A stretch of DNA of 64,000 nucleotides. Origin: Acholoe squamosa (taxonomy: Eukaryota > Annelida > Polychaeta > Phyllodocida > Polynoidae). Positions 2,952 to 57,000 of this stretch are shown piece by piece. The translations under genes were made by a program, and so were the position numbers. Positions within the stretch are counted from its first letter, which is position 1, and every line of letters begins with the position of its first letter. The DNA lies in NCBI GenBank assembly GCA_949317995.1, contig OX439038.1, positions 37,887,113 through 37,951,112 of the forward strand, read 5' to 3'. The notes beneath the pieces were generated by a model, which made no database searches, was not told where the DNA came from, and worked only from the letters and a program-made list of their open reading frames with translations.

Positions 2952-5821
2952 ATGGCTGAGGAATCCGTAGCTGCAGCCAAGCTATCCGGTGACCCGGATA
3001 AGCTGACTCCGTCCGCAGAAGCTTTTCCGGAAGCTTTGTCGCCTGTTACACAGGAAGAGAGCGAGATGATGGACGTGGAGGAATCCACGGATCGCTCGTT
3101 CGAGGAGAAGCTGGCTTCATTTTCACTAAATGAGCCAGAGAAACTGTTATCTCCACTCCCACCCGAGGGATCCAGAGCGGCTGCGAGTGCTGAACCCGCA
3201 GCGACAGAGTCCGAGACCACCCAAGTCGACGGACCGAAGGATCAGTGGAAGCCAGCAGTGGCTAACCCGTTCCCAGTAGAGTATGATGGTCGCTACCTGT
3301 ATGTCCACCCGGAACTGCAGGCGCAAGTGACCTACGCGGACGGGACACCAGTCAGGTTGGACCCGAAAGTTCGGATAGCTGTCGAGGGCGTTATGGTTCC
3401 CGATCAGCTGACCAGGACGCCTCCCGAGTGGCTTCGAGACTGGCCGTGGTTCCAACGGGGACTTATGGTAGACGCTGACTTCCGTGAGACAGTGTATGAA
3501 GCCAACCGAGTCTTCGAGCTCGGAGCGTACCCGAAGCCTGACAAGTCCCTGTGGAACGTCAAGGCTACGAATATTGATTGGGTAGGCTGCGTCTCGGATT
3601 CCGAGGGGCAGACTTACCCACGCCCTTGTGCTACCCGGCCCCAGTACCGGACCACAAAGGAGTACCGGGAAGCCGCTGCTAACTTGGTGCAGCCCTTCGG
3701 ACGGTTCTCGTCCGCCGAATGACTGCCGAACAGGAGGCTCAGGAAGAGGCTAAGAGGGCCGCGGAAGTACCCGCACCTCCTATCCCCGACCTGAAACTTG
3801 CCACCAGGAGTTCAGCCAGTGCTACACCAGCCACCGGCAGTACTACCACTCAGGTAGAAGCCTCGACCTCCAGCGCATCCGGAACCCAGGAACTGGAGGA
3901 AGACTGGAAGGTCAGCAAGAACCGAAGGTCCGCTGCTCGGAAGCTCAAGAATCTCCCGGATTCTGCTAGAGCCGAGCCGAAACCCAGCACCTCAACCACT
4001 GGTAGTACTGCCATGGAGGTTGAATCGTCTGACGAGGAGTCTGTGCACGAGTCCTCGGTTGAGTATGATGAGAAGGCCACTCCATCAACTCAAACCGAGG
4101 CCGAACGCTGGGCTAACGCCAAGTCCGGATTCAAAACCCGGATTCCGACGTGCTTCTCCGACTGTGCGTACGGAGTAAAGAAGGACGGCTCTACCCTCTA
4201 TGCCTGCCCGGACTCAGTCAACAAAAATAATGAGTCAGATGATGAAGATTGCATGCGTCTTTCGGACGAGGACCCCAATCCGAGTAAAGCCTATCGAAAG
4301 ATGTGGCTTATGCTAAACCACACCGAAGGGTATTACACTTATACCCAGAGGAGGAAGCTGCGTTGGGCTTTAGAGAAGTGGTACGGTGACGACCAAAAGT
4401 CCTGTCCCTTCTCTATCTGCCAGGATGCGAGTGATGTCACGATCCGGACCTGGAGTACTCCAGCCCGGTTTCAACGGCATCTGGTAGAGGCCCACTTCCA
4501 CCATCACCCGGTTTACATTTGTGATCCGAGTTATGGTAAGAAGGGCAAGAAGTGTACTACGAAGGTGCAATACAACCGACGTAGTGATCTGGCTAGACAC
4601 CAGAAGAAATGCCACGCAGAAGGTTTGGACGGGGCACGGAAGCGCATCATGGAGCTTCATCAGGAACTCATGAAGGAGTTCGATAGTCTGAGCGAGGATG
4701 CTTGGTCTAAGATCCGACCAGGGGACCAAGTCCTCTGCGAGGTTCCGAAGACTAAGGATTCGAAACTCCGCGCTAAGATAGTCCTGACTCCTGGAAAGGG
4801 TAAGCTGGACATGCACGAGTCTCTCTGGCAGAAATGCGAGGAATCCGGAAAGGATGCAAAGAGAGCTCGTGAAAGGAGCAGAAGAGACCAGAACCGTGGT
4901 GGCAACGGTAATGGTCAGAGCACCACTGCTAAACCGAAAGTCAGAGCGGAGGACCGTTCCAGGTCCCCTCTGGCTAGGCACTCCGCAGAGCAGGCTCAGG
5001 GCACTCCGGTGTTCAAGAAGCCCGAACCTGCCGGATACGCTGGAGCCGTATCTAAGCCTGGGAAAGTTAATCCTCGTAACTTTCCGTCCTTAAACCAGGG
5101 ACCTGGACCTGAGAGCCAGACCTTGGTGGTAGGAAAGGATGGTCGTCTTATGCCAAAGAAGACCACAGCACCTGCTGCCGCCGGATCTGCATCCGCTCCA
5201 GCCGCCCTGCCAGTTACCTTCACCCAGGAGCAGTTGAACATGTACCTGCAAATGGGATTGAAGCAGAACGCACCCCCTGCCTATTGTGTACCAACGGCAG
5301 GCGTGTCCGGAAGCCCCAAACCCGGAAGTGGTCCACAGGCCGCATCGACTCCTCCCAAGGCTGTCGCTGCACCTGCAAAACCAAAGGACGCTATTACCAT
5401 TAAAACCGGTAATGCGGAAGTTTTGGTTTGAGAAGTCTCGCCAAGGGGAGGCAGATGTCCAGAAGGCCATCTACACCCACTGGGAGAAGTGTGTTCGCGA
5501 AAAAGCGACCGAGTTTCATCAGGGTCTCCTAAACGACACCCTGTTGTGTATGAAACAGGTGGGCGACGCTGAAAAGCAGCGCCTCGAGACCCTCATCCGG
5601 GACGATGTGAAGTCCAGGAGGAGGCTGCCGCAGCTGCCCAAGAAAAGGCAGCTATGGATGTGCACGTGCTGGAGAAACGTGTAAAAGAGGAGATTACTCG
5701 GAATACCAACTTGAACACTAAGTTCATGAGGGTATTCGGAGTCGACTTGGACGAGTGGGACGGCACTCCCGAGTCGGCTCTAGCTCTTCTTAAGAAGAAG
5801 CATGCTAAGAAATCCACTTAA
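2952..5821 (+). pseudogene. ORF3 of element B: zinc-finger protein in env position, three frameshifts
   Basis: Function unknown. I chose the ATG at 2952 because the following MAEES is shared with copies C and D and MAE with E; an ATG 18 nt upstream is not conserved. The N-terminal domain runs from YDGRYLYVHPEL (near 3285) through EWLRDWPWFQRGLMV. A deletion near 3677 breaks the frame, and the body resumes with an ATG at 3719 overlapping the first stop. A TERWANAKSGF-like block, then two C2H2-like fingers follow: CPFSIC...HLVEAH (near 4410-4495) and YICDP...KC...HQKKCH (near 4515-4615). The C-terminus holds an alanine/proline-rich linker, a helical segment and the motif MRVFGVDLDEWDGTPES near 5730. 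A one-base gain near 5422 and a one-base loss near 5612 shift the frame again. No signal peptide or membrane span is seen, so it is not an ordinary Env. Confidence 0.85.
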
Positions 5822-26484: not shown

Positions 26485-27446
26485 AACTATGTATTTTAAT
26501 TGCATGTTGAATAATATATACGGGTTCAGATCTACTATCATTGTATAATATTATAAAAAAAAAACACCGACTGTGTTCATCTACTAGATCTGTAAAGACC
26601 TATATAATTAATACACCAGAACATATCACACATCATATCATTATTCGAAAGTGTTACCTGGTGATAGAACGTTATATTTTAAATACAGTGGTACATAAAA
26701 ATGTGTATATTTTTCTAAAATAACATTGTCTATACTAATGTATAAGACAATTGGGATAATTTTTTTTCCGAGTGTACTGTAATAACCTAATAACTATAAT
26801 AGTTCTTATCAGAATTAAGGTTTCAAATATATAATGAAAGTAATAACTTTAGGTTAGAGTCTTTTTCAAGACTAATAATGGTTCAAACGTTGATAATTTA
26901 ATTACGAGGTTTCATATCTTGTTTTACGTTCAGATACGTCACATATATCTGACTAGGTACTTTCATATTGTACTTAACTTAATTTTATCTAACTATCCGT
27001 AACTCTACTGTTACTTTCGAATTGATGTTGATGTGTAAACTTAATTACTTTCCTATGGTACGGATGTTTAACTATAAATTAACCTCTATTGTATGGTAGT
27101 GTAGAGGTATAATAATAACTGGTGCCGTCTGGTGTGGTGGGTGAGACCTGTCGCCTGGTGTTCCTGAGGTTCCGGGTAGGTGGCAGCACCTATCCGGGTC
27201 TGTGGGACACCTGGCGACGAACCGGGAGCATCCACATAAAAGGGTCTGCGCTCACCTACCACGTCAGAGGCCATGTAGGCATCCGTACACGTTATATGTA
27301 GCAACATGTTTCCCTATCCATAAACCTACAGGGTAACCGGAAAGTGTAACAAATAAACTGTTGGCATACACTCGGAATACTGTCTTTGTCTTTCCTTTCG
27401 AATCACGAGACCCGAACCTAACTGGTTAGAAACACAAACCATTACA
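26485..27446 (+). mobile_element. Fragment F: 3' UTR plus 3' LTR of a D-type element
   Basis: 26485-27099 is AT-rich and alignable (reversed) with the 3' UTR of element D (about 46692-47350 and 33100-33356). 27100-27446 is the LTR. No coding part remains; the 5' side ends at the foreign LTR and the 3' side abuts reversed gag of fragment H. Confidence 0.8.
27100..27446 (+). repeat. LTR of fragment F (347 bp)
   Basis: TGTAGAGGTATAATAA...ACACAAACCATTACA, with AATAAA near 27351 and CACGTCAGAGGCC at about 27260. It is closest to the element D 3' LTR. Confidence 0.88.
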
Positions 27447-30024: not shown

Positions 30025-30037
30025 GGTCACGGCACCA
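30025..30037 (-). other. Primer-binding site of fragment H, tRNA-His
   Basis: Same 13-mer TGGTGCCGTGACC on the minus strand, one base from LTR-H. Confidence 0.8.
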
Positions 30038-32757: not shown

Positions 32758-33099
32758 TGTAGAGGTTTGTGTTTCTAACCAGCTAGGTTCAGGTCTCATG
32801 ATTCGAAATAAAAGATGAAGACAGTATTCCGAGTGCCAACGGTTTATTTAGTACACTTTCCGGTTATCCTGGAGTCTATGAATAGGGAAACATGTCACTA
32901 AATGTAGCATGTACGGAGGCCTACATGGCCTCTGACGTGGTAGGTGAGCACAGAGCCTTTTATAGGAATGCTCCCGGTTGTCGCCAGGCATCCCACGGAC
33001 CCGGACAGGTGCTGCCACCTATCCGAAACCTCAGGAACGCAAGGCGACAGGTCTCACCCGCCACGCCAGAAGGCACCAATATTATTATATACCTCTACA
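32758..33099 (-). repeat. 3' LTR of element D (342 bp)
   Basis: In element orientation TGTAGAGGTATATAATAATA...ending in CCTCTACA; followed on the + strand by the complement of a polypurine tract (33100-33110). It matches LTR-F and the scrap at 13.46 kb. Confidence 0.85.
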
Positions 33100-33356
33100 C
33101 TACTCCCCCAGAAAATAGGTAGGAGTTATAACTATTAAATTATTATATAGGATTAACATATACAAAATGTTTATCCATACAATAGAGGTTAAATTATAGT
33201 TAAACAACTGTACCATAGGAAAGTATTTACGTTTATATGTCAACATGGATTCGAAAGTAATATTATAGTTACGGATAGTTAAATGATAGTAAGGTAAGTA
33301 CAATAGTGGAGTACTTGATTTGTAATGAATCTGAACATATGAACAAGGATTAATAT
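33100..33356 (-). other. Element D 3' UTR, distal part
   Basis: AT-rich noncoding DNA alignable with F (26.9-27.1 kb, reversed). It stops at 33356 with AATAT, and the same UTR resumes at 46692 with ATATG. Confidence 0.75.
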
Positions 33357-33605
33357 TGTAGTGGTTAGTGAAAACGTCTCTGGAGACACCGGGATTCAAA
33401 CCCGGGTCTCTCGCTTGCAAGTCGAGTGCTCTACCGCTGAGCTACATCCCCTGGCCTGACATACCCTGTCACCAACACGGCCCCACTGACATTTCCACCT
33501 TCCAACTACCCTGGATCGGTATGGTATACATAGGGGGAGTGACACAACCAAGTGAACAGTCCCTCTGAAGGCTCTGCGCACCCGACGGGGGAACGAACCC
33601 CTACA
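33357..33605 (-). repeat. 3' LTR of the miniature element (249 bp)
   Basis: In element orientation TGTAGGGG...AACCACTACA. It contains the tRNA-like sequence 33381-33451 and a T4 terminator (complement of 33371-33374). Confidence 0.88.
33381..33451 (-). tRNA. tRNA-Ala(UGC)-like, in LTR, weakened B box
   Basis: Cloverleaf folds: acceptor GGGGATG with TGTCTCC including the G3:U70 alanine identity pair, D stem GCTC/GAGC, anticodon TGC in loop CTTGCAA, T stem CCGGG/CCCGG. The T loop reads TTTGAAT instead of TTCGAAT, which spoils the B box and the G19-C56 contact. The anticodon stem has a 31-39 A:G mismatch, as in the partner copy. Confidence 0.75.
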
Positions 33606-33623
33606 CTCCTCCCAACCAGCTTC
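33606..33623 (-). other. Polypurine tract of the miniature element
   Basis: The minus-strand GAAGCTGGTTGGGAGGAG directly precedes the 3' LTR. Confidence 0.6.
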
Positions 33624-33799
33624 AACCGTATCCCGCCAGAACCGGTCCTCCAGTCCAGTCTGAACGGTACCAGTACTGAGTCACACACAGCCCATCTGTT
33701 TCCAAGTCGCTCAGCACTAGCAAGTTGAAGCGCTTGTCTATACCATACCGGCCCAGGTACCGAGCTCTCTAAAGGTCCCCCTTGCGAGGCAGGACCACT

Positions 33800-33813
33800 C
33801 GGTGTCTCCACCA
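33800..33813 (-). other. Primer-binding site, tRNA-Ala (self-encoded)
   Basis: Minus-strand TGGTGGAGACACCG is the exact complement of CGGTGTCTCCA plus CCA, the 3' end of the tRNA carried in this element's own LTR. One base separates it from the LTR, the same spacing as in the large elements. Confidence 0.88.
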
Positions 33814-33814
33814 C

Positions 33815-34058
33815 TGTAGTGGTCAGTGAAAACATCTCTGGAGACACCGGGATTCGAACCCGGGTCTCTCGCTTGCAAGTCGAGTGCTCTACCGCTGAGC
33901 TACATCCCCTGGCCTGACATACCCTGTCACCAACACGGCCCCACTGACATTTCCACCTTCCAACTACCCTAGATCGGTATGGTATACATAGGGGGAGTGA
34001 CACAACCAAGTGAACAGTCCCTCTGAAGGCTCTGCGCACCCGACGGGGGAATGAACCC
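33815..34058 (-). repeat. 5' LTR of the miniature element (244 bp, end trimmed)
   Basis: Same as the left LTR except five substitutions and absence of the last CTACA (+ strand) where element C starts. Confidence 0.87.
33839..33909 (-). tRNA. tRNA-Ala(UGC)-like, in LTR, intact A and B boxes
   Basis: Same cloverleaf as the partner copy, with G3:U70, anticodon TGC, A box TAGCTCAGCGG and a consensus B box GGTTCGAATCC. A TTTT terminator follows 6 nt after the 3' end (complement of 33829-33832). It should be transcribable by Pol III. The 31-39 A:G mismatch and a four-base variable loop are unusual, so it may not be a working decoder of Ala codons. Confidence 0.82.
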
Positions 34059-34435
34059 TGTAATGGTTCGTGGTCTTACGGACCTGGGGGCTTCGGGTCT
34101 TACGATTCGGGAAAGAAAGAGTAAGACGGTGTTTCAAGTGTATGCCAACGGATAGTCTTTATTAAAATACACACTCACGGCTACCCGATAGTTATTAAGA
34201 GGGCAGCTAACAGATACTAAGGATGGTCTTACATACTTGGAGGCCAGAAGGGCCTCTGACGTAGCGGCTGAGCCCTGGGCTTTATATAAGGACCCAGGTG
34301 TTCGTCGTCAGATGTCCCCACAGACCCGGATCAGTGCTGCCACCTATCCGGAACCTGAGGAATGTCCGACGACTCGACTCACCCGCCACGTCAGACGGTA
34401 CCCAACACTATGGTTATACAATAAGTACCTCTACA
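34059..34435 (-). repeat. 3' LTR of element C (377 bp)
   Basis: TG...CA ends, TATA box (complement of TTTATATAAGG near 34281) and CTACGTCAGAGG block as in B. Confidence 0.94.
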
Positions 34436-35987
34436 CCACTCCCCCAGACATTTTAGGAAGGAGTTATAGTTATTGTATTATTACAGGGATAACATTACTA
34501 TACGTCTAAACCCTTAATAATAGAGGTACAACCATAGATATAACGTTAACACCATGTTCAGTATGATTCGAATGTCAATTTCACATATTTGATAGTGTAT
34601 GTAGTTACAGAATAACAAACCGGATGTTGTAATACAATACGAATTAGTTGAATGAATAACAGTTGTGTGTAACGGAACTGTTAATTAACCTTTTATACCA
34701 TATAATAACAATCTATGTTTACGGTATAAGTATTAGGATAAGTATCGTAATTCACATATATGTGATAATAACAGTTATATGTAACGGAACTGTTAATATT
34801 GAATAAATCACATAATAACATCCATATGTGTTTGTAATTATTAATATCATAAATGATTATATAGTCTTGAAAAAGACTTTTAAAGTAACCACACTATCTA
34901 ATGACATTTTATATGTTATGACCAAATGAATCCGTTAAGGATTTCGTGAGTTATTAGGAATAGGACCGTTATAAATTATACACTTGAAAAAGAAAAATAA
35001 ATCACGGTGGAGTAATGTATATGACACTATGTGTGATACCACCGTGTACCAAATAACCATTATAGCACCAGATGAATATATTTATAATACAATATGCCTC
35101 GCAGGACAATAATATGAATAATCTGGTGAGGTTTACCGGATCTTGTTAAATAGCATGAATACTAACCAGAGATCCGTATTAATAGATATGTATATACCCG
35201 TATCAAAATATACAATAATTTATCACCACAGTGTGATTATACACATACAAATGATATTAGAAAGAAAATAGGTATATGACATTATATACATGATAAATGA
35301 TAAATGCTGCTGGAGTCTTGTGCTGCAGTCTGCCGGATGCTAGACGGTTGGTATGGTGGTCAGCTAACCACGGGATGGACGTGCTAAAGTCTTTTTCATG
35401 ATCCAGGTTAATAAATGTGAACACGGTAGATGAATTTGGGGCAGCTACCCACAATCCTCTAGAAGTGCTTTTGTTCATAGGTATATGCGAATGGTGTAGA
35501 ATAATAGTAGAATAATAGTCCGGTTTTGTCAACAAGTAGAAACGTAATCCATTTAAGTATAGTTGACATAAGTATGAGTCCAAAGTAGGTTGGTCCGGAA
35601 GTAGTAGTATGTAATAGTATGTAGTTTTAATCCATTCGGGAGTAGAGGTAGCATAGAATCGTATAGTCCATCCTTATATAGTGGTCAGCAACAGGTAACA
35701 GCAGGAATCAGGAACCAGCATCCGGATACGTATGACAGCAGCAAGTCTACTATTGGATTTTTCATAAGTGTAGTTTCGAATCCGAATAGACTATTCAGGG
35801 TATAATCAAGGGTTATACGTCCTGAATCATACAATTAGCTGGTTATAAATGGAACCCGGAACACAAAGAGCAGGTGTTCATCATTCTAATAAAAGACATT
35901 CGCAGAAGTGTAGTGTTCCGCAAAGACTAAATCTGGTTATTAGTGGAGAAGAAAATAATATATATAGAGAAATAATCCGTAGCATGC
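34436..35987 (-). other. AT-rich 3' UTR of element C
   Basis: Reversed homologue of 5822-7346. Stem-loops ACAGTT...AACTGT at 34659-34681 and 34771-34793 match the pair in B; the CACGGTGG...CCACCGTG inverted repeat lies near 35003-35046. There is no gene. Confidence 0.8.
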
Positions 35988-38729
35988 TTAGGTGGACTTC
36001 TTAGCATGCTTCTTCTTAAGAAGATCTAGAGCCGATTCGGGAGTGCCGTCCCACTCGTCGATATCGACTCCGAATACCCTCATATACTTAGTGTTTAAGT
36101 TGGTATTCCGGGTAATCTCCTCCTTAACACGCTTCTCCAGAACGTGTACGTCCATAGCTGCCTGTTCTTTGGCAGCTAAGGCTTCATCCTCCTGGGCCTT
36201 TACATCGTCCCGAATGAGGGTCTCGAGGCACTGTTTTTCGGCATCTGCCACCTCCTTCATGCATAACAGGGTATCGTTAAGGAGACCCTGATGGAAGTCA
36301 GTCGCTCTGTCGCGGACACATTTCTCCCAGTGGGTGTAGATGGCCTTCTGGACATCCGCTTCCCCCTGGCGAGACTTCTCGAACCAGATTTCTGCATTAC
36401 CTGTTTTAATGGTAATTGCATCCTTTGGTTTCTCAGGTGGTGCGACAACCTTGGGGGGAGTCGACACTGCCTGAGGACCACTTCTGGATGTAGGGCTTCC
36501 GGATACTCCTGCTGTTGGTACACAGTAGGTGGGAGGCGCTGGATTCTGCTTCAGCCCCATCTGCATATACAGTTGTACCTGCTCTGGGGTGAAGTTTACT
36601 GGTAGAGCGGCTGCAGCAGCTGCGGATCCAGCGGCAGCAGGTGCTGAAGTCTTCTTGGGGACAAGTCGACCACCCTTTCCAACGACCAAGGTCTGGCTCT
36701 CGGGTCCAGGTCCCTGGTTCATGGACGGAAAGTTACGGGTGTTAACTTTCCCCGGCTTAGATACAGCACCTGCGTATCCTGCAGATTCGTACCCGGGAGT
36801 CAGGACAATCTTGGCGCGGAGTTTCGAATCCTTGGTCTTCGGAACTTCGCAGAGGACTAGGTCCCCTGGTCGGATCTTCGACCAAGCATCTTCACTCAAG
36901 CTATCGAACTCCTTCATGAGTTCCTGATGAAGCTCCATGATTCGTTTGCGAGCCCCATCTTCCGCATGGCACTTTTTCTGGTGTCTAGCCAGATCGCTAC
37001 GTTGGTTATACTGAACCTTCGTAGTGCATTTCTTGCCCTTCTTACCATAACTCGGATCACAAATGTAAACCGGGTGATGGTGAAAATGGGCCTCCACTAG
37101 ATGTCTCTGGAACCGGGCTGAAGTGCTCCAGGTCCGGATCGAGACGTCACTGGCATCCTGGCAGATGGAGAAGGGACAGGACTTTTGGTCGTCACCGTAC
37201 CACTTCTCAAGTGCCCACTGCAACTTGTGCCTCTGGGTATAGGTGTAATACCCTTCGGTATGATTAAGCATAAGCCACATCTTTCGATAGGCTTTGCTCG
37301 GATTGGGGTCTTCGTCTGAGAGACGCATCCAATCTTCATCATCCGACTCGTTGTTCTTGTTTACAGAGTCCGGGCAGGCGTACAGGGTAGAGCCGTCCTT
37401 CTTTACTCCGTAAGCACAGTCGGAGAAGCACGTCGGGATCCGGGTTTTGAATCCGGATTTGGCGTTAGCCCAGCGTTCTGCCTCGGTTTGAGTAGATGGG
37501 GTGGCTTTCTCATCATACTCCACCGAGGACTCGTGCACTGATTCCTCGTTTGAGGAAACAACCTCCATGGCAGTACTACCAGTGGCTGAGGTGCTGGCTT
37601 TCGGTTCGGCTCTAGCAGAATCCGGAAGATTCTTGAGCTTCCATGCAACGGACCTCCTGTTCTTACTGACCTTCCAGTCTTCTTCCGGGTCCTTGGTTCC
37701 GGACGCGCTGGAGGTCGAGGCTTCTACCGGGCTTGGTTCGGTAGTACTGCCGGTGGCTGTAGCAGAACCGGCTGTGCTTCGGGTGGCAAGCTTCAGGTCG
37801 GGGATAGGAGGTGCGGGTACTTCTACTTCCCTCTTAGCCTCCTGTTCTGCTTCCCTCTAGGGCCTCCTGTTCAGCAGTCATACGATGGACAAGGACCGTC
37901 CGAAGGGCTGCACTCCTGTCCAAACCCGTTAGCGACTTGTTTTGTACGTTGACTAACTCCGCTTCGGTTATATAATAACCGTCGTCCCACTGCTCGAAGT
38001 TGCTAGCAGCTTCACGGTACTCCTTCATGGTCCGGTACTGGGGCCGGGTGGCACAAGGACGGGGGTAGGTTTGCCCCTCGGGTTCCGAGACGCAGCCTAC
38101 CCAATCGATGTTGGTCTGTTTGACGTTCCACAGAGACCTATCCGGCTTCGGATACGCTCCGAGCAGGAAGGCTCTGTTTGTCGCATACACTACTTGGCGA
38201 AATGCAGTGTCCACCATGAGTCCTCGTTGGAACCACGGCCAGTCTCGGAGCCATTCGGGAGGCGTCCTGTCCAGCTGTTCGGGAGCCATGACGCCCTCGA
38301 TAGCCATTCTCACCTTCGGGTCCAGCCTAACCGGTGTACCGTCAGCGTAGGTCACCTGTGCCTGTAGCTCCGGATGGACGTACAGGTACCGACCGTCATA
38401 CTCTGCTGGAAACGGGTCAGCCACTGCTGGCTTCCACTGATCCTTCGGGCCGTCGACTTGTGTAGTCTCGGACCCAGTTGCTGCTGGTTCAGGGTTTGCA
38501 GCGTCTCCAGATCCCTCGGTCGGAAGTGGTGACAACATCTTTTCGGCTCATTCAGTGAGAATGAGGCCAACTTCTCCTCGAACGAGCGATCCGTGGGTTC
38601 CTCCACTTCCATCAGCTCGCTCGCTGCCTGTGTTACAGGTGACAAAGCTTCCGGAAAAGCTTCTGCGGACGGAGTCAGCTTATCCGGGTCGCCGGATAGC
38701 TTGGCTGCTACAACGGATTCCTCAGCCAT
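35988..38729 (-). pseudogene. ORF3 of element C, frameshifted and internally deleted
   Basis: Same protein family as ORF3-B. Start at ATG 38729 (MAEES). Frame breaks near 38540 (one base lost after the FSLNEP block) and near 37845 (small duplication around EQEA). Between them the N-terminal domain is complete, including FEQWDDGYY, which is missing in B. The last 526 codons from 37568 are open: acidic block, TERWANAKSGF-like block, fingers CPFSIC...HLVEAH and YICDP...HQKKCH, and the terminal motif MRVFGVDIDEWDGTPES near 36075. An in-frame deletion removes about 60 residues after ILTPG (near 36795). The C-terminus WFEKSRQGEADV...KKHAKKST is intact and shows what B would encode without its indels. 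Confidence 0.87.
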
Positions 38730-39235
38730 GACTGGGGAATCGACACGGGAGTCAAAATACTCCTTTTTCCGGCTTTTACGGCGCCGGGGCCGACACAGAC
38801 GGAGCCTGCCTGCTGAGAGACAGACTCTGAGGGCGCACAAGGGAGTTGCTAGACGGTAGAATTTAAGGTGAAAGGGGTGACCCGACCGACCTAAACACTA
38901 CCGAAAAACAATATGGCGACAAGCCAGCTTTCGTGACGTCATTTCCCCGCGAGTCCGCGGGGTCACGAGAGGTCAGTTGAGACTGGACGCGGTGACGTCA
39001 TGCGGAAACGCACGTGCTACAAGTGGAACATCAACTGATTGTTTTTAGGTAATTATCGCTCACGCCGATGACTCGTCTGGGGATTTAAGTGGAGATTATG
39101 GAAAGCTTAAGCAAATCCACCGGATTATCCGTCCACTACCCATTGGTACATCATACGGCGGCGACAAATAAGCCTTTCAGGTCAGTTGTCATCCGTTCCT
39201 CTAAATGTAAACATTACACTCGTTGTGTATACAGG
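38730..39235 (-). promoter_or_regulatory. Pol-ORF3 spacer with CRE, E-box and YY1-like sites
   Basis: Reading toward ORF3: CACGTG (39011-39016), TGACGTCA (38993-39000), TGACGTCA (38934-38941), and the complement of CAATATGGCG (38909-38918). Same order and near-same spacing as B and E. Confidence 0.62.
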
Positions 39236-42200
39236 TTAGGTCACTGCAGTCCTCTGGGCAATTCGAGGGCTGCGGCGAACGTATATCCCCTTCTTGGATA
39301 GTACTTTATCAGACCTGACAGTCTGAAGAGCCTTTTCTGGGTGTTTCTTGGCCTTCAAAACACCTTTCCTCTTCTTTTTGTCTTCACCTGCCGAGACTTT
39401 TTTAACTCCCCCACGCTTAATCGGTGTTGGCGTGGGTGGTACTGATTCGGAACACTTCTTAGGCCTACCCCGGCCTCGATTCACTGTAGTGTTCTTTACC
39501 TGGTCTATTATACGATTCCGGTTCAGGATCTTTCCGGAACCTTCACCATACATTTCTGTGGAGGTCTCCCTCCCAGACCATTTCCTTAGTCTAGCCACAT
39601 TTGACCAAGGTCTGATTTGATAATTACGGTACAATCACTGATAACTTGTGTTACAGTAAAGGGACCATCCCAATTAGACGCTAATTTTATGTGTCTAAGT
39701 GGTTCATGTAATCTCAGAACTCTGTCTCCGGATTGGAATTTCCGATGTTTTAGATCGGTATCATATCCAACCTTCTGCCATTTGGCACTTTTCTCTAAAT
39801 CAATTCGGACAGACTCATATGCCTTTTTGAATCTGTCTCATAAGCATTCGACAAAAACTACATGACAAGGTAGTTCCGGGTCCATTCCTACGACTCCAAA
39901 TACTAAGTCTGCAGGCATTATCAGATCTTCTCCGAATACTAAAAGGAGTGAGTTAGTACTTGAATGTACCGTGCTGTTATAAGCATGTGTCACGAAATGA
40001 CATTGCTCATCCCAGTCGTCCATGTGTTCATTGACGAGTTCTATTGAACCTTTCTACCAATCCGTCACTTTGTGGCCTATACGGGTTGGTTCTAGTCTTG
40101 CAGATAGCTAAGTATTCGCACATACCTTGCCAGAGATTTGATTCGAATTCCCTGCCTTGGTCACTGTGTAGCATTAATGGTACACCAAAAGTCAGTACCC
40201 AACCTTTTACAAAGGCTTCGGCACAAGTGACTGATTTGTGATCCGGTAGTGGGAATACTTTGGTGTATTTCGTATAATAATCACACACTACCATCATACA
40301 GGTATTATCATTAGCGGTTGTATTCAGTCCACTAATGATACCCACCCCGATTCTTGTGAATCTAACTACGAAAAGTTCTTGGGATAGTGGAAGTTTGCCT
40401 ATCCCAGGTCCGGGTTTGTTTTTACAACAGTCCGGACAGGTGGTTACCCATCTTTGCAAATCCCGTGTCATGCCAGGCCAATAGTACTTCTTGGAAAGTC
40501 GTGCTAATGAGCGTTTCCTTCCGAAATGACCACTGGTCCGATGTCCATGACAGAAGTACATAATGTCATGTCTCATGGCATGTGGTATCACCACTTGCAT
40601 GACTTTCTCACCATTTTTACATGGCTTCCAACGGTATAACACGCCTTTCCGGACTTCAAGCTCTGTCCATTGAGCAAGAAACCTTCTCATTTCTCGATTT
40701 TCCAGAGAGACCTCCGGTCTAACTGGACGTATACCCTTTACTAATTGTAGTAGCTGTGCAGTTATCGAGTCAGTTTCCTGGAAACGTCGTATGTGATCAT
40801 ATAGACCAATCCAATATACTGGCAACTAGGGGTTCGAATGGTCTTCGAATCCCTGCTAGCACTGCTCTATGAGCTCCACAATCAGTACAATCCGGATTAT
40901 CACATTTCCGAATTGGTATTCGAGATAAAAGCATCAGCATTTAAATGCTTAACTCCGGGTCTATGCTGAATCTGGTGATGTTCAAGCCCATATTCGGATA
41001 AATGGGCTAGCCATCGGCCCAACATCCCTTCAGCATCTCGGAAGTTCAATAGCCATCTTAAAGAGGACTGATCCGTACGTAAAGTAAAGTTCGTTCCCCA
41101 TAAAAAATGTTTGAACTTCTTTGTATATACGACCACTGCTAACAACTCTCTTTTGGTTGTGCAGGAATTGCACTGAGTTTTACTCAGTGTGTTGCTGGCG
41201 AAGGCAATAGGTACCTCTCTCCCATTTTGGACTTGCGAGAGAGCTGCACCAATGCTATCATTACTAGCATCAGTGTCCAGTATGAAATGATCCGTTTCAT
41301 TCGGATATTGTAATACTGGAGTACTCGTGAACAGGTCTTTTAGATTTTGAAAAGCAGATTCCTGCTCATGCGTCCAAGGAAATTTTTCCTTGGTACTTCC
41401 TGGAGTCCAGTTAGCAATTGTTTGTAATGGGTAACTGACTCTAGAATAATTCGGAATAAATTCCCTATAATAGGAACAGAATCCTAAAAAGGACCTCACT
41501 TCTTTGGGTGTTTTAGGTCTATTCCAATTTGTAACTGATTCGATTTTATCTGGATCAGCTTTTATTCCTTCATCACTAATGATGTGGCCCAAATAATTTA
41601 TGGACTTTCTAAACATGTGGCATTTCTTGGGTTTCAATTTGAGACCATTAGAAATAATACGTTCTAATACCAATTTGAGATTGTTAGAACACTCTTCGAA
41701 TGTTTTTCCGAAGACTATAACATCGTCAAGGCATCTTTTCACAATAAGTCACTTAGAATTGTTTCCATCATTGCTTCAAATGTTGCTGGTGCATTGCACA
41801 AACCAAACGGCATTACGTTATATTGGAATAATCCAATATGACTCGAAAATGCAGTCTTTTCCATATCAGATGGATTCATTCCCACTTGCCAATATCCTAA
41901 TTGCAAGTCTAAGGTACAAAACCAACTGTTTCCTCCTAAGGAGTCAATGGTTTCGTCTATTCTCGGTAATGGATACGAATTCTTTTTCGTTATTCCATTT
42001 AACTTCCTGTAGTCTATGCAAAAGCGGATAGTACCGTCTTTTTTTGTTACCATACACACAGGACTACTCCAAGGACTATTGGAAGGGACTATTACATCCT
42101 GTTCCAACATCTTGTTTATTTCCTCTTCAGCTACTCTCTTCTTCGCTAAAGGTAACCGTCTATATGGTATTTTAAAAGGTTCCGCATCTCCAGTATCTAT

Positions 42201-43388
42201 TTTATGTACTACCTTATTCGTCGTGCCTAGTTTTTCACCAGGTTTGGCAAAGGCAGTCTTATACTGACAGAGCATATCATAGAACTCTTTCCGGTGTTCC
42301 GGATCTTCTAATGAAGTTTCTTCATATAACTTGAGTAAGTCATCCGAAATTTCATCATTTCCTGTTACCTTCTGTAAGTTTAACTTACTATCCGTTACAG
42401 TTTCCGAAAGGGTCACGTTACCAAAAACTTGTCCCTTTTTTAGGTAGATAGTAGTGTTTCCAGTGTTGGAGACAGGTACTACCGACCAGGATGCATTTGC
42501 TACTATAGTGTCTACAGATATTAATCCGATGCTTGACAGAGTGGCTACATCCGGTTCTATCACTGCAGCCTTATTGCGCATTGCAGGATCACTTCTTACA
42601 AGCACGTCACAGGCTACCCCCGGAGGGATCCGCACAGTGTGTGCTACACTAGCCATACTGCTCACTTGTCTCAGTACACACCTAACCTTTACAGGATACG
42701 GGTATTTCACACTCAACACTCCTGATTGGGGCTCCAACACCACCCCATACAGGGATGCGAAATCCAACCCGAGTATCCCCTCATCTGCTATGTCCGCAAC
42801 GGTGGCGCTCATGACATAGTCATGTATTCCATCCAATTGCAGCTTCACACAAGTTCTCCCATACGTTTGCAAGGTACTGTCATCGGCCGTTTGAGCATTT
42901 CCTCCCGATTTGAGAGTATCGTGTTCATCTGGGATAAGATCGTAGAACCTCTTGGAGATACAGGAGTGGCTAGCACCCGTATCCATAAGAAATTCGGCAG
43001 ATCTTCCGTTAACAGTGAGGCAAACATACCACCGCCTTCCGTTCAGAACAGAGGGCGTGTCCGTGACGATCGGAACGTCATTGTTCACACCTGGAGTCGA
43101 TCCACATCCTTTCAGGTATTCCAGACAAGGATGACCCGGGGGCAGGTGGGCACTACCAACCCTGGCTAATTCATAGCCGCCTACCTCGTTACTGATATCG
43201 GGTTTCCCCTGTGCTCCCTGGGCACCTGTTATATCAGCTTCCCTAACCTTCCAGGTGTCTACAACCACCTCGGTGTTAGGCGAGTTTGTTACTATATGCG
43301 AACTGTCGTCACGGATGGTGATATCATGGCAAGATTTGTCACTGGGATCCCCTTCTTTGCCCCTCGGGGGACCCCTCCTCAGTTTTCC
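39236..43388 (-). pseudogene. pol: Pol of element C, several lesions
   Basis: The frame opens at 43388 in -1 phase to gag. Protease (LMDTGASHSC near 42975, ILGLDFA near 42760) and the N-terminal RT (CIDYRKLNG, MPFGLCNAPATF) are open to 41739. There a base loss plus a short deletion changes the RT catalytic YLDD to CLDD and shifts frame. RNase H (DTDAS near 41270) and the CDNPDC region follow, then breaks near 40900, 40826 and 40025, and within the integrase C-terminus near 39840 and 39630. The integrase HHCC (near 40555) and D and D of DDE are readable (HSDQGREF near 40155). The basic tail with RGRGRPKK closes the gene at 39236. Confidence 0.88.
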
Positions 43389-46260
43389 TCTGTACTTATT
43401 CCAGAGACACCTTAGTGTCTACGAGGGACAGGTTTCTCGGCCATACATTCAGGAGCATAATGTCCTAACTTTTGGCATCTGAAGCATCTCCTTTGAGATT
43501 TATCAACTCTCGGTCTTTTCAGAGCTTCTGTTAATCCGGCTATTAATGTCTCCATCATGTTAGTCGGAGTAGCAGTGGCTGCTACGGTAGGAGTGACCGT
43601 AGTGGTCGCACTACCAGATTTAATAGGTCCGGAAGCTATATTACTAGCTACGGCCCCTCCCCTTCCTTTCGGAAGTACTTTCCTATACCGTTTTTGTCTG
43701 TAATACTTTCCAGCAACCTGGACTGATCCAATATATTCTCCATTTTCATCAGAGACATATTCGTCTTCCTGATCAGCCTCCTGTAGGTCAACAGGGGCTA
43801 ATTGTGAAGTTTCAAATGCCTGAGCAGAGGTACCTCCGTATTGCAATGGAGCTGCTCGGACTGGATTCGGTCCTAGACCTACCAATCTCTTCTTCATATC
43901 ATGCCCATCAATTGATATGAATAAGTCACTGAAGGATGTGTCATCCTTCCAAGAATCCCAAACTACTTGTTTGTGATCCGGATCCCACAATCCATTGTAG
44001 AATTGTGTAAACAATTCCTGCAGATAGCAGTCATCGTCATGAGCCCAATTAGGACGTGCTTTCGATAGCAAGTCCTGCAGCTCCAAACCAAAGACTTTAT
44101 GAGATTCTTTAGGTTTTTGTGTCCTTTTCTTAAAGCTTACCCATGGATCTTCTCTAACGATCGAACCAAACAGGTACGCGGCACACTCGACCAATTGGTC
44201 ATATGTGCCGCATATTTCGTATGCGGCTCTCCATTGATTGAGGGCTACTTTTCCGCCTTTATTCAACCAGCAGATCAAATAAGGTAGAGCTTCCTCTTTT
44301 GTCCAGCCACTACAGTTGACCTCGTCGACAAAAGCTTGATACCTATCCTTCCACGGATCATTTGAATCATAAGGAGGGGGTATCCGTGCCTGTCTACGAG
44401 CTGGATTATTACATCCGCGTAGTCTGTCAGCTTCTCGCATGCTCCAGTTCATGACTTCCATGCCGTCTGCTCCCTTTCGGTAGCAGTCAATGCCCAAATT
44501 TTGGATGCATTGGCTTTTCTCAAAGATGGTTTGCATCCCTGCAGGCATGGAAGTTCTTCTATTAGGCTTCCTGCCATCTCCTCCCGATCCTGATCCACCG
44601 GATCCAGATCCACCAGGGCCACCCGGGGGATTACCTCCAGGGGGACCACCACTAGGGTAGTTCCCAGAAGCATTACCAGGGTATCCACCTCCATAGTTTA
44701 CATTTCCAGTTGTTCCGGAAGATGCATACTTCGGGTAGGAATTATTTTGATTCCATCCCTGATTATAGTTATTACCATTTTGGTAATTACTACTTCCTGC
44801 CAGATTATAATTATGCCTATATCCATAGGAAGGTGTTCTTGGTTGGTACGTACCACCATTAGGACCATTGCTTTGACCTGAAGGCGGGTTCGGCAATCTT
44901 GGGCCTGCTGGTGTACTATGGCCGGGTTGAGAGAAATATGACGGTGGGGTTAGCATATGTCTCGGTGGTCCCGGTACATTCGTTTGTGCTACTGGTGTAT
45001 TATTATTGGCACTAATAGTATTAACGTGAGTCGCTCTAATTTTATGACTCAAATCTGGTATAGGGGGTGCCGGACCTACTGCATAGGAGCTGCAGGTGTA
45101 GGTACAATATTCATTGATCCTTTATTAGTAGTTCCCTGTGGGCATTTACCATTTTGGATACTCATTCCGTTAGCTGCGGTGTTATCCGGTTTCTTATAGA
45201 TTCCGGATACTACATTTTTATCAGCCCAATTGACGACGAATGGGTTATATCTGGTTGGAGTTGCATCTTGGGATGATTTCGCCAACATTGTAGAGACCAC
45301 AGTTGGATCTATAGTGCCTATAGTCAATTGTGCAGCTTCTACATATTTGTCTAGGGTTATTGCAGTAGCCTGCAATTCCTGAAGCTCATTCGTGAGTTTC
45401 TGTCTATCTTCCTCCAGTTGTTTATTGTAAGCTATAATACCTACCCGGATTGTTTCATTGTCTTCAGTTGTTTACTGCACTGAAGTTTCAATTTTTCTAA
45501 TTCGCTTTGATAATGGCATATTTCTGATTCGTAATTTGCCTTATCAAGACTTAGCTGATCGTTCGTATCTATGTATGTCTGGATACGAATGTGTCTGTTG
45601 TCATATTCTTTATTGAATGACTTTCTCATTTCTTGAAGTTTTATTTCTTCACTTTCTAATTCTTTCATGTATTCACTTTTTCTGGCTTCGAATTCGTTTC
45701 GCATGCTGATCAAGTCCTCTTCTAACTGAAGTTTTTCATTAAATACTTCATCTTTTGCTTTGACCAAGGTATTCAGATTCTCGTTCAAAGTTACATAGGT
45801 TTCATTTAACAACAGGACATCCGGTTGTTTAAATTCTTCGCCTTCCGGTACCGCATAGGTTACGTCGCCGTCTATAGTGCTGTAATCTAATATTGGTAGC
45901 CCGGGTCTGGGTATACTGTAAGGTAGTTCTCCAAACGTAACCCTTTTTGGTATAGGTGCCGGATGTTCTGGGTTAGTACTACCACCAACCTCGAATATCG
46001 AGTTACTTAATTCGTCAACAAGTGATTGTTGACTTATCACGTTACTCTGCCTCTGTATGGATTGTTCCCTTCGTACAGAGTCTGGTAAATTTTCCTCACT
46101 ATCGTTATAGTGAGGTTCGGGATCTCTCCAAGATGCAGATTCCGCATCTCGGGAGTTCGAATGTGTTTAGATCACTAATGATCCATTGCCATTCTCCTGG
46201 GCAACTAGTTGCCCTGCTGGGTTAGCTTCCGCGAGGCTATCTAACCCATGTACTAGCCAT
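43379..46260 (-). pseudogene. gag: Gag of element C, several lesions
   Basis: The likely start is the ATG at 46260, next to the leader palindrome. Frame breaks occur in the first 120 nt, near 45400 and near 45065, and an in-frame TAA lies near 43412, 30 nt before the original stop at 43379-43381. Visible parts: VTFGELPYS block, coiled coil (45440-45800), Asn/Gly/Tyr-rich linker (44600-44900), capsid core (PWKDRYQAFVDEVNC near 44350, EDPWVSFKKRTQKP near 44130), zinc knuckle CFRCQKLGHYAPEC near 43470. It matches Gag of E closely. Confidence 0.85.
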
Positions 46261-46262
46261 TC

Positions 46263-46278
46263 GGACGTTATAACGTCC
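46263..46278. promoter_or_regulatory. Leader palindrome GGACGTTATAACGTCC
   Basis: A perfect 16-bp palindrome between PBS and gag start. Element E has a different but still self-complementary sequence, GGACACATAGTGTCC, at the same place. Confidence 0.55.
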
Positions 46279-46300
46279 GGGCTATACACCAGAACTAACT

Positions 46301-46313
46301 GGTCACGGCACCA
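46301..46313 (-). other. Primer-binding site of element C, tRNA-His
   Basis: Same minus-strand TGGTGCCGTGACC, one base from the LTR. Confidence 0.82.
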
Positions 46314-46314
46314 G

Positions 46315-46691
46315 TTTAATGGTTCGTGGTCTTACGGACCTGGGGGGTTCGGGTCTTACGATTCGGGAAAGAAAGAGTAAGACGGTGTTTCAAGTGTATG
46401 CCAACGGATAGTCTTTATTAAAATACACACTCACGGCTACCCGATAGTTATTAAGAGGGCAGCTAACAGATACTAAGGATGGTCTTACATACTTGGAGGC
46501 CAGAAGGGCCTCTGACGTAGCGGCTGAGCCCTGGGCTTTATATAAGGACCCAGGTGTTCATCGTCAGATGTCCCCACAGACCCGGATTGGTGCTGCCACC
46601 TATCCGGAACCTGAGGAACGTCCGACGACTCGACTCACCCGCCACGTCAGACGGTAGCCAACACTATGGTTATACAATAAGTACCTCTACA
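46315..46691 (-). repeat. 5' LTR of element C (377 bp)
   Basis: Matches the 3' LTR. Its PBS-side end reads TTTAAT on the + strand instead of TGTAAT, so the terminal CA is mutated. Confidence 0.94.
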
Positions 46692-46912
46692 ATATGAAAC
46701 CTCGTAATTAAATTATTAACATATGAACCTTATTAGTCTTGTAAAAGACTCTAACCGTAACATTATTACTTTTATACACATTAAACCTTAGTTCTGATAA
46801 GAACTATTACAATGTTATTAAGTTATTACAGTACACTCGGGAAAAAAACCCCAATTGTCTTATACATTAGTATAGACAAAGTTGTTTGTTTTTTTTTAGA
46901 AAAATATACACA

Positions 46913-47160
46913 TGTAGGGGCCAGCTCTGGCTGTAAGTCCATGGCGGTAGGCCATCTGCCCCGTTCCGGTTGCACCAGCCATCAGGGGCTGGTCAGCCAG
47001 TATAAGCTGCCCCCTTGTGTATTATACCGATCCAGATGTTGGTGGAAGGTAGAGAATGTCAGACGGGGAAGTAGCTCAGCGGTAGAGCTTCCGCCTGCAG
47101 GTTGGAGGGTCCTGGGTTAGACTCCCGGTTTCTCCAGGATGTTTTCCGCCAACCTCTACA
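46913..47160 (+). mobile_element. Solo LTR of the miniature tRNA-bearing family (248 bp)
   Basis: It reads TGTAGGGG...AACCTCTACA and aligns with the miniature LTRs in opposite orientation over ACCGATCCAG, TTGGTGGAAGGT and the tRNA core. CACA occurs directly on both sides (46909-46912 and 47161-47164), a 4-bp target duplication, and the flanking D UTR is continuous across it when compared with fragment F. Confidence 0.82.
47065..47136 (+). tRNA. tRNA-like sequence in solo LTR, anticodon position GCA
   Basis: Acceptor GGGGAAG/TTTCTCC keeps G3:U70; D stem GCTC/GAGC; loop CTGCAGG would give anticodon GCA (Cys) if U33 is respected; T stem CTGGG/CCCGG with an aberrant TTAGACT loop, so the B box is degraded. 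A TTTT run follows at 47142-47145. By homology it is a diverged copy of the tRNA-Ala in the miniature LTRs rather than a true tRNA-Cys gene. Confidence 0.6.
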
Positions 47161-48021
47161 CACATCTCTATGTATCACTGTATTTACAATCTAACCTTTT
47201 ATCACCAGGTAACACATTCGAATAATAATATGAAATGTAATATGTTCTGGTGTATTAACTATATGGGGTTTTACAGATCTAATATATGAACACATTCGGT
47301 GTTTTATAAGATTATACAATAATAACAATTCTGAACCTGTGTATTATTAAGCATGAAATTAGAATACACAATTATGACTTAGATGCGGTTTTACTATAAA
47401 CCTTTTAATAATATAAATATAGTTAATATCGAGCATAGAAAACAGTGATACATACAATTGTGTTAAACAATTAACTATCCCGATGTTGCTTTGGTGATGG
47501 AGTGGGTGTGGAAGGTGTGCAGTAATCCGGAAGTGGTCAGCTAACCAAGGGATGGAAGTGCTAAAGTCTTTAAGATATCACGGAAGTTGATAGGGCAGCT
47601 ACCCTAGTACTCTAGAAGTGCTAAAGTTAATAGTAATATTTCCAGATGGGTGAATCCTAAAGTTAAGGCACTCGGGCCAACTAATCCTGTAGTAAGTGTT
47701 CATAATTTCCATGTAGTAGTGGTAGATAAGAAGGTCCCGGAATGTATATCCAGAGTCTATTGTAGTAGTGTATAGTTTCAAACAGTAAAAAGAAAGATAT
47801 ACATCAGGGTGTAGATAGAACATCATAAATAGTAGTACAGGTAGTAGTAACAGGTAATCCAGATCTCACAGCATCTGTCGGCAGTATCAATAACTATTCC
47901 GATAAGAAGAAAGTATCCGAGGCTAGGTCGCTAGAATGTATGGAGTTTCAAATAATACACTGCATACTCTGTATACATTCCGGGTTAACGAGCTGGTTAT
48001 AATATGGAACCCGGAAGCATA

Positions 48022-54020: not shown

Positions 54021-54033
54021 TGGTGCCGTGACC
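54021..54033 (+). other. Primer-binding site of element E, tRNA-His
   Basis: TGGTGCCGTGACC one base after the LTR. Confidence 0.85.
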
Positions 54034-54075: not shown

Positions 54076-57000
54076 GAACAGGCGGGTACAAGATTGGCGT
54101 ATAACGCCAATCCGGATGAGACCCGGGAGGAACCAGCGCATTTTAATGCGCCCTCCAGGGACCAGCAATGGAGGGACACGATACCTCACTACGTGGATAG
54201 TGAGGAAAATGTCCCGGAATCAATCCTGGTGAAACACCGGGTTGAACGTGTCAACCAACATTACTCTGTCAATTTAGAATTGGCAGATTCTTTGTTCGAA
54301 ACTGGAGGAAGCCATGACCCAAATCATCCGGCTCCTATGACAAGGAAGGTAACCTTTGGTCAGCTTCCTTACGATATCCCAGGGCAATTACCACCACTTG
54401 ATTGTAGTGCGATTACCACTGGGAATGTTACTTTCACCGTTCCGGATCATGATAAATACAATCGGGAAATGGATGAAATGAACCAGCAATATCTGGCTAT
54501 GAATGAGACGCTTAACCTGATAGCGAGAGCTAAGGATGAAGCATTCGAAGAGAAAGAGGATATTTTGGAAAATCTCCGAGATATGAGAGCTGAGTTTGAA
54601 AATGAAAAACAAACTCTGAAGCAGCAACTGCATGAAGAAGAAACCCAATTTCTGAGTGCAAAAGAATCGCTGTAGGCAGAATACGAACGCCTGAAAGAAT
54701 GTTGTGTTAAACAGGCCGAAGATAACGAAACTGTCCGGATAGGTATCCTCCGATACAATGAACAATTGATGAATGATCGGGATGAATATCTACTCGAACT
54801 GCAGGATTTACTAAATACTGCAGCCGCATTGGGTGACTATGTAGAACAAACCCAACAAGCAATTGGCCCATTAGACGATACAATAATCGTACAATTAGCT
54901 AGTCGTTTACAGGCGGGAACTACAGTAGATAATAATGATGCTGTAGGATCGCAAAGTGCGACACCTGTTGCCGGCCCCACTCGGTATAATCCTTTCATAA
55001 CCGATGGGGCTGATAAACATGTAGCAGGCGGTATTTATAATCCCAATAAACCACCGAATGGAGTAGATTCCACAACTAAAATAACAGGAGCACCCACTAA
55101 AGGTGATTCCCATCCTACTCCACCCGGAAACAATGTGAGAGCCCCACCAGTACCTCAATTACCTTTCTTGACAAATACAGCTGCTGGTGGAGCAGGTGAT
55201 CCTTCTGATTCAAAGAACAGTGGTTTGGGTAAACAAGACGGGAATCGGAATAATAACCCGAAACAACCTGACCCCCCGAAACCCACCCCTGGTCCCGGAG
55301 CAAGTACACCACGTCCTCCGCCAAGAAATACAATGCCTGATGGTCATTATCGGAGTGCTCCATCTCGTCCAACTTATGTAGGTGTGCAAAATGCACAAAG
55401 CCCACATACAGGAACGTATGCCGATGGTGGTCAACCTCCGGCCGGTGACTCCCATGGTTTCAGGAGACACCACGCGAATAGCTACGGCTATGACGGTAAT
55501 AATACCGGTTATACCAACACCCAAAATTTAAATTATTTTGGGCAAGGCCGCAGCCAAGGCTATGACGGAGGTGGAAGATATCCATCGGGAGGATCCGGAG
55601 GTGGAAGATATCCATCAGGAGGATCCGGAGGTGGAGGATATCCATCGGGAGGATCCGGAGGAGGAAGATATCCACCGGGAGGATCCGGAGGTGGAGGATA
55701 TCCATCGGGAGGATCCGGAGGTGGAAGATATCCACCGGGAGGATCCGGAGGTGGAAGATATCCATCAGGAGGACCCCAGTGGTGGAGGATATCCACCGGG
55801 AGGATCCGGTGGTGGAGGATATCCACCGGGAGGATCCGGTGGTGGAGGATATCCACCGCGAGGATCCGGAGGTGGAGGATATCCACCGGGAGGACCAGGA
55901 GGAGGAGGTAATACCCCTTATGGTGCTAATCAAGGAGACGGAGGAAAGCCTAAGAGAATGAATAGGCGTTCTTCTATGTCTCCCGGAAGGCAAGAAATTT
56001 TTGATAATAGTAAATGCATTCAGGGATTAGGAATTGACTGCTATCGTAAAGGAGCCGATGTTGTCGAAGTAATGGATTGGAGCCTGAAGGAAGCCAATCG
56101 GCTCAGGGGTTGTTCTAATCCTGCGCGTCGTATGGGATGGATACCTCTGCCATACGATCCGAATGAACCTTGGAAAGATCGTTACCAAATCTTTGTAGAC
56201 GAGGTTAATTGTAGCGGATGGACTAAAGACAAAGCATTACCGTATTTAGTCTGCTGGCTTAGTAAGGGAGGTAAAGTGGCCCTGAACAGATGGAGAAAAG
56301 AATATGGGATAGAAGGTACCTACGACGAATTGTTGGAGTGTGCCTGCTACCTATTCGGTTCTATTGTCCGAGAAGATCCTTGGATCACATTTAAGAGACG
56401 GACACAGAAACCCAGGGAGTCACATAAAGTCTTTGGGCTGGAACTACAGGACCTGCTCAGTAAAGCTAGGCCTAATTGGGAATATGACGATGAATGTTGG
56501 CTACAAGAGTTATTCACTCAATTCATTGCCGGACTCCGGGATCCGGAACATAAGACTGTGGCCTGGGATGAATGGAAGGACGATACCTCCTTCAATGATC
56601 TGTTCCTGGCTATCGAAAATTATGACAGAAAGAAGCGGTTGCTAGGCGCCAATGCACCCCCTGCAAGAGCTTCAGCAGTTAAAAGTGATCCACCCATACC
56701 GGAACACACGGCTGCAGTTGAGTCCGGTTCGATGGACTCCGATTACGAATATATCTCTGATGATGATGGAGAATATATCGGATCTGTACAAATTGCCGGT
56801 AAATATCATCGGCAGAAAAGGTACCGAAAATGAGGTTTCAAGAAGAAATCAAACTTTCAGAAATCCCTAGGGGATGCATCACCGGTAGCACCCAAACTAG
56901 AGGTGCCGCAGAAACCGGTAGCGCAATTACCGGTACCACAGTTACCCACTTTCTCTACTCCTCAGATGGCAGTGTCAACTGCTCAGGGGGATTTTATGGA

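Follow-up and report, generated by a model that had tools for sequence, protein, structure and literature searches.

LTR retroelements and retroviruses use host tRNAs as primers, and how an LTR lineage switches from one primer to another is an open question. The locus described here raises that question in a particular form: can a retroelement carry, within its own LTRs, the gene of the tRNA that primes it? The element concerned is a TRIM, a short non-autonomous LTR element, lying in a window of 64 kb (the whole stretch of DNA that was analysed, 64,000 nucleotides). As the best explanation of the locus as a whole we favor, with a probability of about one half, a reading in which an LTR bearing a tRNA gene would yield both template and primer, with reverse transcriptase (RT) and integrase supplied by a gypsy element.

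The sense strand of the TRIM is the minus strand, so that its right-hand repeat (34058..33815) is the 5′ LTR (Table 1). The LTR pair aligns over 244 nt (33357-33600 and 33815-34058) with 98% identity and 5 mismatches. With two LTRs, 702 bp, a 209-nt interior and no protein coding, the element falls within the size class of Helenus (TRIMp3), the tRNA-bearing TRIMs that are known from six animal phyla (Kojima, 2024; PMC10886601, cited throughout for the portions consulted), and it is almost certainly a Helenus-type TRIM. An ORF of 189 aa that runs across it is a chance ORF, and a protein search with it scored 238 candidates with none at E≤0.01. The motifs AATAAA, ATTAAA and TATAWA are absent from the sense strand of the TRIM, which is in keeping with transcription by Pol III. 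Each LTR also contains a 19-nt stretch (33510-33528 and 33968-33986) that forms an imperfect inverted repeat with the interior (33739-33757; 84-89% complementary), and these stretches may pair in RNA.

Table 1. The TRIM, the gypsy element joined to it and related sites; positions are those of the 64-kb window.
Feature	Position	Strand	Remarks
Helenus-type TRIM	33357..34058	-	702 bp; 5′ LTR lacks its first 5 nt
5′ LTR	33815..34058	-	244 nt; TGTAG absent from its start
tRNA-Ala(UGC) gene in 5′ LTR	33839..33909	-	ARAGORN; Rfam RF00005 67.2 bits; A box, intact B box, G3-U70
T4 run, possible Pol III terminator	33829..33832	-	behind the 5′ LTR tRNA
PBS TGGTGGAGACACCG	33800..33813	-	one base (G) past the LTR
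Interior	33606..33814	-	209 nt including spacer base and PBS; no recognised coding content
PPT GGTTGGGAGGAG	33606..33617	-	immediately 5′ of the 3′ LTR
3′ LTR	33357..33605	-	249 nt; TGTAGGGG...CCACTACA; complete copy
tRNA-Ala(UGC) gene in 3′ LTR	33381..33451	-	ARAGORN; Rfam RF00005 64.5 bits; one B box change
T4 run	33371..33374	-	behind the 3′ LTR tRNA; would terminate a full-length transcript
Gypsy A	34059..46691	-	12.6 kb; LTRs 34059-34435 and 46317-46691, 98.4%; joined to the TRIM
ATAT outer target duplication, TRIM side	33353..33356		
ATAT outer target duplication, gypsy side	46692..46695		
Solo LTR, related Helenus-type element	46913..47160	+	TGTAGGGG...CTACA; TSD CACA on both sides
tRNA-Cys(GCA)-like gene in solo LTR	47065..47136	+	ARAGORN; Rfam 47.5 bits
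Paralogous empty site	26490..27446	-	without TRIM, gypsy A and solo LTR

The tRNA genes of both LTRs stand in sense orientation relative to the TRIM and score above the RF00005 gathering score of 29. RF00005 is alone among Rfam families in reaching its gathering score in the TRIM, and 5S rRNA gives no Rfam match there up to E 1. The A and B boxes are in place, the latter altered at a single position (33398) in the 3′ LTR, and in both LTRs a T4 run (GTTTTC) begins six bases past the tRNA. In the cloverleaf one position of the anticodon stem fails to pair and three pairs of the acceptor stem are G-U; G3-U70 is the alanine identity pair of tRNA. Two further ideas about these genes were discarded. 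The absence of another T4 run between the two terminators is not significant as a sign of selection for Pol III transcription, since 53% of dinucleotide shuffles and 37% of plain shuffles also lack one; and a tRNA acquired through read-through copying of a primer would be expected, by reasoning, to sit antisense behind the PBS, whereas the actual genes are sense and upstream.

On the minus strand the PBS (33813..33800) is the reverse complement of the CCA-tailed LTR tRNA end over 14 of 14 nt, after which the two diverge. Eleven of these bases are complementary to the LTR DNA as well, while the first three (TGG) pair solely with the added CCA. The LTR DNA does not encode CCA behind the tRNA, and these three PBS bases therefore fit only the matured tRNA. 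A TGG start is nevertheless common to tRNA PBSs generally, and the self-match is therefore carried by 11 bases. In retroviruses the usual PBS-tRNA match is 18 nt, and the match of the TRIM stops short of this, at 14 nt. The preliminary description of this locus had claimed an LTR element with paired repeats at 33357..34058, a tRNA-Ala(UGC)-like gene in both LTRs, a B box intact in the right copy, T4 terminators and an exact 14-nt complement between PBS and tRNA. All of this was recovered independently, including the outer limits of the element; the extent of the LTRs had to be amended, the left one being complete at 249 bp and the right one lacking its first 5 nt.

How much weight the match can bear depends on the null. 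By simple arithmetic, chance would supply about 0.0005 exact occurrences of a 14-mer in 64 kb when both strands are counted, and the 13-mer core of the PBS has a single exact match in the window. With up to 2 mismatches the count is 2 against a chance mean of 1.96, and what counts is thus that the PBS match is exact and lies beside the LTR. A fairer null grants that a PBS fits some tRNA in any case, and agreement in tRNA type would then arise at an estimated rate of about 1 in 20 to 40. The profile of the TRIM LTR finds in the window the two LTRs and one solo LTR, and that of the interior finds itself only; with one full-length copy, the self-match is compatible both with coevolution and with coincidental agreement with a host tRNA-Ala.

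That the TRIM's own LTR tRNA serves as its primer we hold tentatively, at slightly less than even odds, and several other accounts of the match have to be weighed against it. The element may be an ordinary Helenus primed by host tRNA-Ala, its LTR tRNA acting as promoter only and both features tracing to the same host tRNA, an account that we regard as possible though doubtful. Animal tRNA-Ala genes commonly end in CATCTCCA or CACCTCCA rather than TGTCTCCA, and at the bases that set these ends apart the PBS would agree with the LTR tRNA; moreover, the gypsy elements located in the window carry a different PBS. The presence of G3-U70 in the LTR tRNA is what a host-derived tRNA-Ala would lead one to expect, LTR tRNAs are read as promoters rather than primers in the consulted portions of the Helenus survey, and with more than 200 Helenus families described it would be no great surprise for one of them to show an agreement in tRNA type, even though those portions report no such agreement between tRNA and PBS (PMC10886601). 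If no tRNA gene outside Helenus LTRs were to end in CGGTGTCTCCA, the LTR tRNA would be the sole fitting primer.

The complementarity could also act within the RNA itself, as a cis hairpin between U5 and PBS that is structural or primes the element in the manner of Tf1. The predicted hairpin is a perfect 11 bp, with modelled pair probabilities of 0.93-0.98 for 10 of the 11 pairs and 0.52 for the other, and when the 5′ RNA is folded alone the structure containing the tRNA 3′ end/PBS hairpin has a minimum free energy of -53.4 kcal/mol, against -46.5 kcal/mol for a forced cloverleaf. So favored in folding, the hairpin would hide the PBS as well as the 3′ end of the tRNA, and the preference could reflect either a rivalry between cloverleaf and hairpin or a structural role for the complementarity; U5-PBS stem-loops matter in HIV-1, going by the title of a reference in PMC13191261. 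We nonetheless consider the hairpin improbable as the explanation of the match, because it does not need the TGG at the PBS start, the complement of a CCA added post-transcriptionally, and because this TGG lies exactly one base past the LTR, as in four gypsies of the window. Still less probable is tRNA mimicry, in which a tRNA-like fold in the full-length RNA would bind alanyl-tRNA synthetase and free host tRNA-Ala beside the PBS. For HIV-1 and LysRS such a role has been proposed for an element that resembles a tRNA anticodon and lies upstream of the PBS (PMC4810235, in part), and the TRIM has a whole tRNA-Ala 25 nt upstream of its PBS, but a full gene with a T4 run behind it exceeds what mimicry would need. 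Mere duplication in tandem of a region holding a tRNA gene would account for two repeat copies of a tRNA close together and for nothing more; given the PBS, the PPT, the TGTAG...CTACA ends and a solo LTR relative with a TSD, and contradicted as it is by the empty site described below, it is scarcely credible.

The solo LTR aligns with the LTR of the TRIM (77-79% over the tRNA region) and has its tRNA-like gene at the equivalent position. The preliminary description had named copies without the tRNA as evidence for chance insertion into one LTR ancestor; the relative at 46913-47160 has a tRNA in the same place, and the LTR tRNA is thus no isolated late arrival in one copy. As the tRNA of the solo LTR ends in CCCGGTTTCTCCA, self-priming predicts a PBS starting TGGTGGAGAAACC in its full-length relatives. 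Pattern scans of viral_contigs gave 0 for tRNA end plus PBS, 0 for the tRNA core and 0 for gypsy LTR end plus PBS; the scan for the LTR core returned one contig (L001), which lacks a tRNA and has only weak BLAST matches, 26-32 nt long, and that for LTR end plus PBS returned another (L002), in which no internal repeat or tRNA was found and the match is a chance one within a 205-aa ORF. The scan of genome_contigs for TRIM relatives gave 0, and a search for gypsy RT in viral_contigs gave 5 stretches with 0 confirmed. The scanned collections being viral or prokaryotic, these zeros say little about animals.

The window also contains candidate helpers. Four gypsy PBSs, located by the word TGGTGCCGTGA of gypsy A and hence selected for that word, read TGGTGCCGTGACCAG (minus strand at 46313, gypsy A, and at 30037 and 25568; plus strand at 54021), a word that we take to be of tRNA-His type. 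An oyster gypsy with a PBS of tRNA-His type is listed by Kojima (PMC10886601). Each of the four lies one base (C) past an LTR end, which reads AACCATTACA or ACCCATTACA and, in gypsy A, AACCATTAAA. A scan free of that word, for TACA followed by 0-3 bases and TGG, gave 43 strings; the LTR ends that could be recognised in this set belong to three of the four gypsies and to the TRIM, gypsy A escaping the scan through the AAA at the end of its LTR. The PBS of the TRIM differs from those of the four located gypsies and is thus not simply theirs, and the TRIM interior has no similarity to the gypsies in the window beyond a few bases. The termini, however, resemble each other: LTRs of the TRIM and of the gypsies share the terminal sequence TGTAGRGG, an opposite end that reads nearly AACCATTACA and a single spacer base before TGG, and purine-rich PPTs occur in TRIM and gypsies alike. 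The TRIM further shares AGTGG behind its PBS with the gypsy at 54021, which hints weakly at common descent.

The pol region of gypsy A is spread over several separate ORFs, so that this copy is itself probably dead. A search with the gypsy RT found 345 proteins at E≤1e-20 among 8000 candidates scored; among the best 120 of the 345, relatives named by organism (oyster, spiders, insects) appear from rank 32, at 35% identity. Between pol and the 3′ LTR gypsy A has two large ORFs on the minus strand (35988-37856 and 37834-38547), neither with a Pfam match, and the former (ORF3) has 2 relatives among 7999 candidates scored. Another large ORF (3683-5431, plus strand) lies in a gypsy copy at the left end of the window, and a C2H2-like stretch was noted by eye in these large ORFs. 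The gypsy that spans 54-61 kb has tandem repeats in steps of 30 bp at 55566-55908, within its gag-side ORFs.

The evidence that ties the TRIM to gypsy A comes from their junction. The 3′ LTR of gypsy A, complete to CCATTACA, continues directly into base 6 of the TRIM 5′ LTR, at the point where the first 5 nt of the latter are missing. This inner junction has no target duplication, and the TRIM has no TSD of its own; a single pair of ATAT instead brackets TRIM and gypsy A together (33357-46691), the chance of such a 4-mer agreement in the flanks being 0.0086. The joined outer flanks match a paralogous sequence (26520-27080, minus strand) that has one ATAT and neither element, the match being good rightward and weaker over the last 50 bases leftward, with a 5-nt gap beside ATAT. 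The same paralog has a single CACA at the site of the solo LTR. More widely, 26490-27446 (minus strand) is paralogous to two segments, 32758-33305 and 46692-47368; the duplication behind this is an older one, and the empty sites of two insertions are preserved in it.

We consider it likely that TRIM and gypsy A integrated as a single joined cDNA; on the simplest reading, gypsy and TRIM cDNAs made in one particle became linked at their ends with a loss of 5 nt, and integration took place through the outer ends. The TRIM could instead have entered the ATAT duplication of the gypsy later, followed by deletion of 9 bp (ATAT and TGTAG) at the inner junction, which would leave an identical outer ATAT. 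This course of events is less likely than joined integration and, in our judgment, unlikely, as it requires both exact targeting of a 4-bp site and an exact deletion. The LTR divergences of the TRIM (5/244) and gypsy A (6/375), too, are not different (Fisher P 0.76), although with so few differences the test is weak. Joined integration would tie the TRIM to the family of gypsy A, which is probably its helper: similar termini and the joined insertion speak for mobilisation by gypsy, yet the PBS differs and the interior is shared for a few bases only.

From these observations a mechanism can be proposed for the favored reading. Transcription by Pol III would begin at the tRNA of the 5′ LTR of the TRIM. 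Termination at the first T4 would release a pre-tRNA of about 80 nt, which, once trimmed and supplied with CCA, could become the primer, while transcription through to the T4 of the 3′ LTR would produce a full-length RNA of about 535 nt that carries the tRNA region at each end; one promoter could thereby yield both template and primer. The LTR tRNA would pair with the PBS, gypsy RT would copy the TRIM RNA, and gypsy integrase would insert the TRIM cDNA with 4-bp duplications. That a retroelement should thus encode its own primer tRNA, with primer choice evolving with the element and apart from a helper that uses another tRNA, is a possibility that we put forward with some reserve. Were it true, a PBS tracking the tRNA gene of its own LTR would show the capture of a primer followed by coevolution.

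Several known systems resemble the TRIM in part. Helenus comprises 113 rust, 40 wasp and 51 bivalve families and others, and the survey credits only seven families from bivalves (Thr) and 15 from fungi (His or Thr) with the ability to encode a tRNA (PMC10886601). The TRIM shares with Helenus the short non-autonomous LTR format, tRNA-derived LTR sequence with A and B boxes, a PBS at the 5′ and a PPT at the 3′ interior end, a likely gypsy helper, tRNA-Ala-type LTRs as in rust fungi (Ala-TGC and Ala-AGC in Table 2 of PMC10886601) and the 4-bp TSD of animal Helenus elements, here CACA at the solo LTR and ATAT around TRIM and gypsy. It differs in that, as far as the consulted portions of the survey go, the LTR tRNA and the PBS were not found to be complementary in Helenus and the tRNA was concluded not to join in priming (PMC10886601), whereas 14 of 14 bases match in the TRIM. 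Its PBS is also unlike those of the gypsies located nearby, while gypsy dependence in animal Helenus was argued from PBS and sequence similarity (PMC10886601); its tRNA was called as Ala by ARAGORN, and tRNAscan-SE was used in the survey. The preliminary description had held that an animal element with a tRNA gene in its LTR matching its own PBS was undescribed. Helenus makes the tRNA in an animal LTR already known, but the PBS match to the LTR tRNA is new relative to the consulted portions of PMC10886601, and no report of a self-matched element appeared in the literature searched, mainly open literature judged largely by listing. A search by the letters of the PBS returned unrelated work only, judged by title, and one for co-packaged, end-joined LTR cDNAs returned none, which proves nothing.

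Cassandra, a plant TRIM, likewise has a Pol III gene in its LTR and transcripts running from 5′ LTR to 3′ LTR (PMC10886601), but the gene is 5S rRNA and the hosts are plants, whereas the TRIM described here has a tRNA and no 5S. Ajax, a nemertean TRIM, also carries a small-RNA promoter in its LTR and differs in having a 5S fragment, a PBS for tRNA-Leu and a 5-bp TSD (PMC10886601). In self-priming of the Tf1 type the RNA of the element supplies its own primer (PMC6934838, in part), as the TRIM RNA might; Tf1 lacks a conventional tRNA PBS, whereas the TRIM, for which a cis hairpin is possible in folding, has a PBS with a tRNA-type TGG that fits a CCA-tailed tRNA. A self-matched TRIM, if true, would be an exception to the statement of the Helenus survey (PMC10886601, in part). 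New here beside the match is a TRIM lying end to end with a 12.6-kb gypsy within one ATAT duplication, with an empty paralog and similar LTR divergence, and such a joined insertion supplies evidence from the genome as to the autonomous family that mobilises the TRIM.
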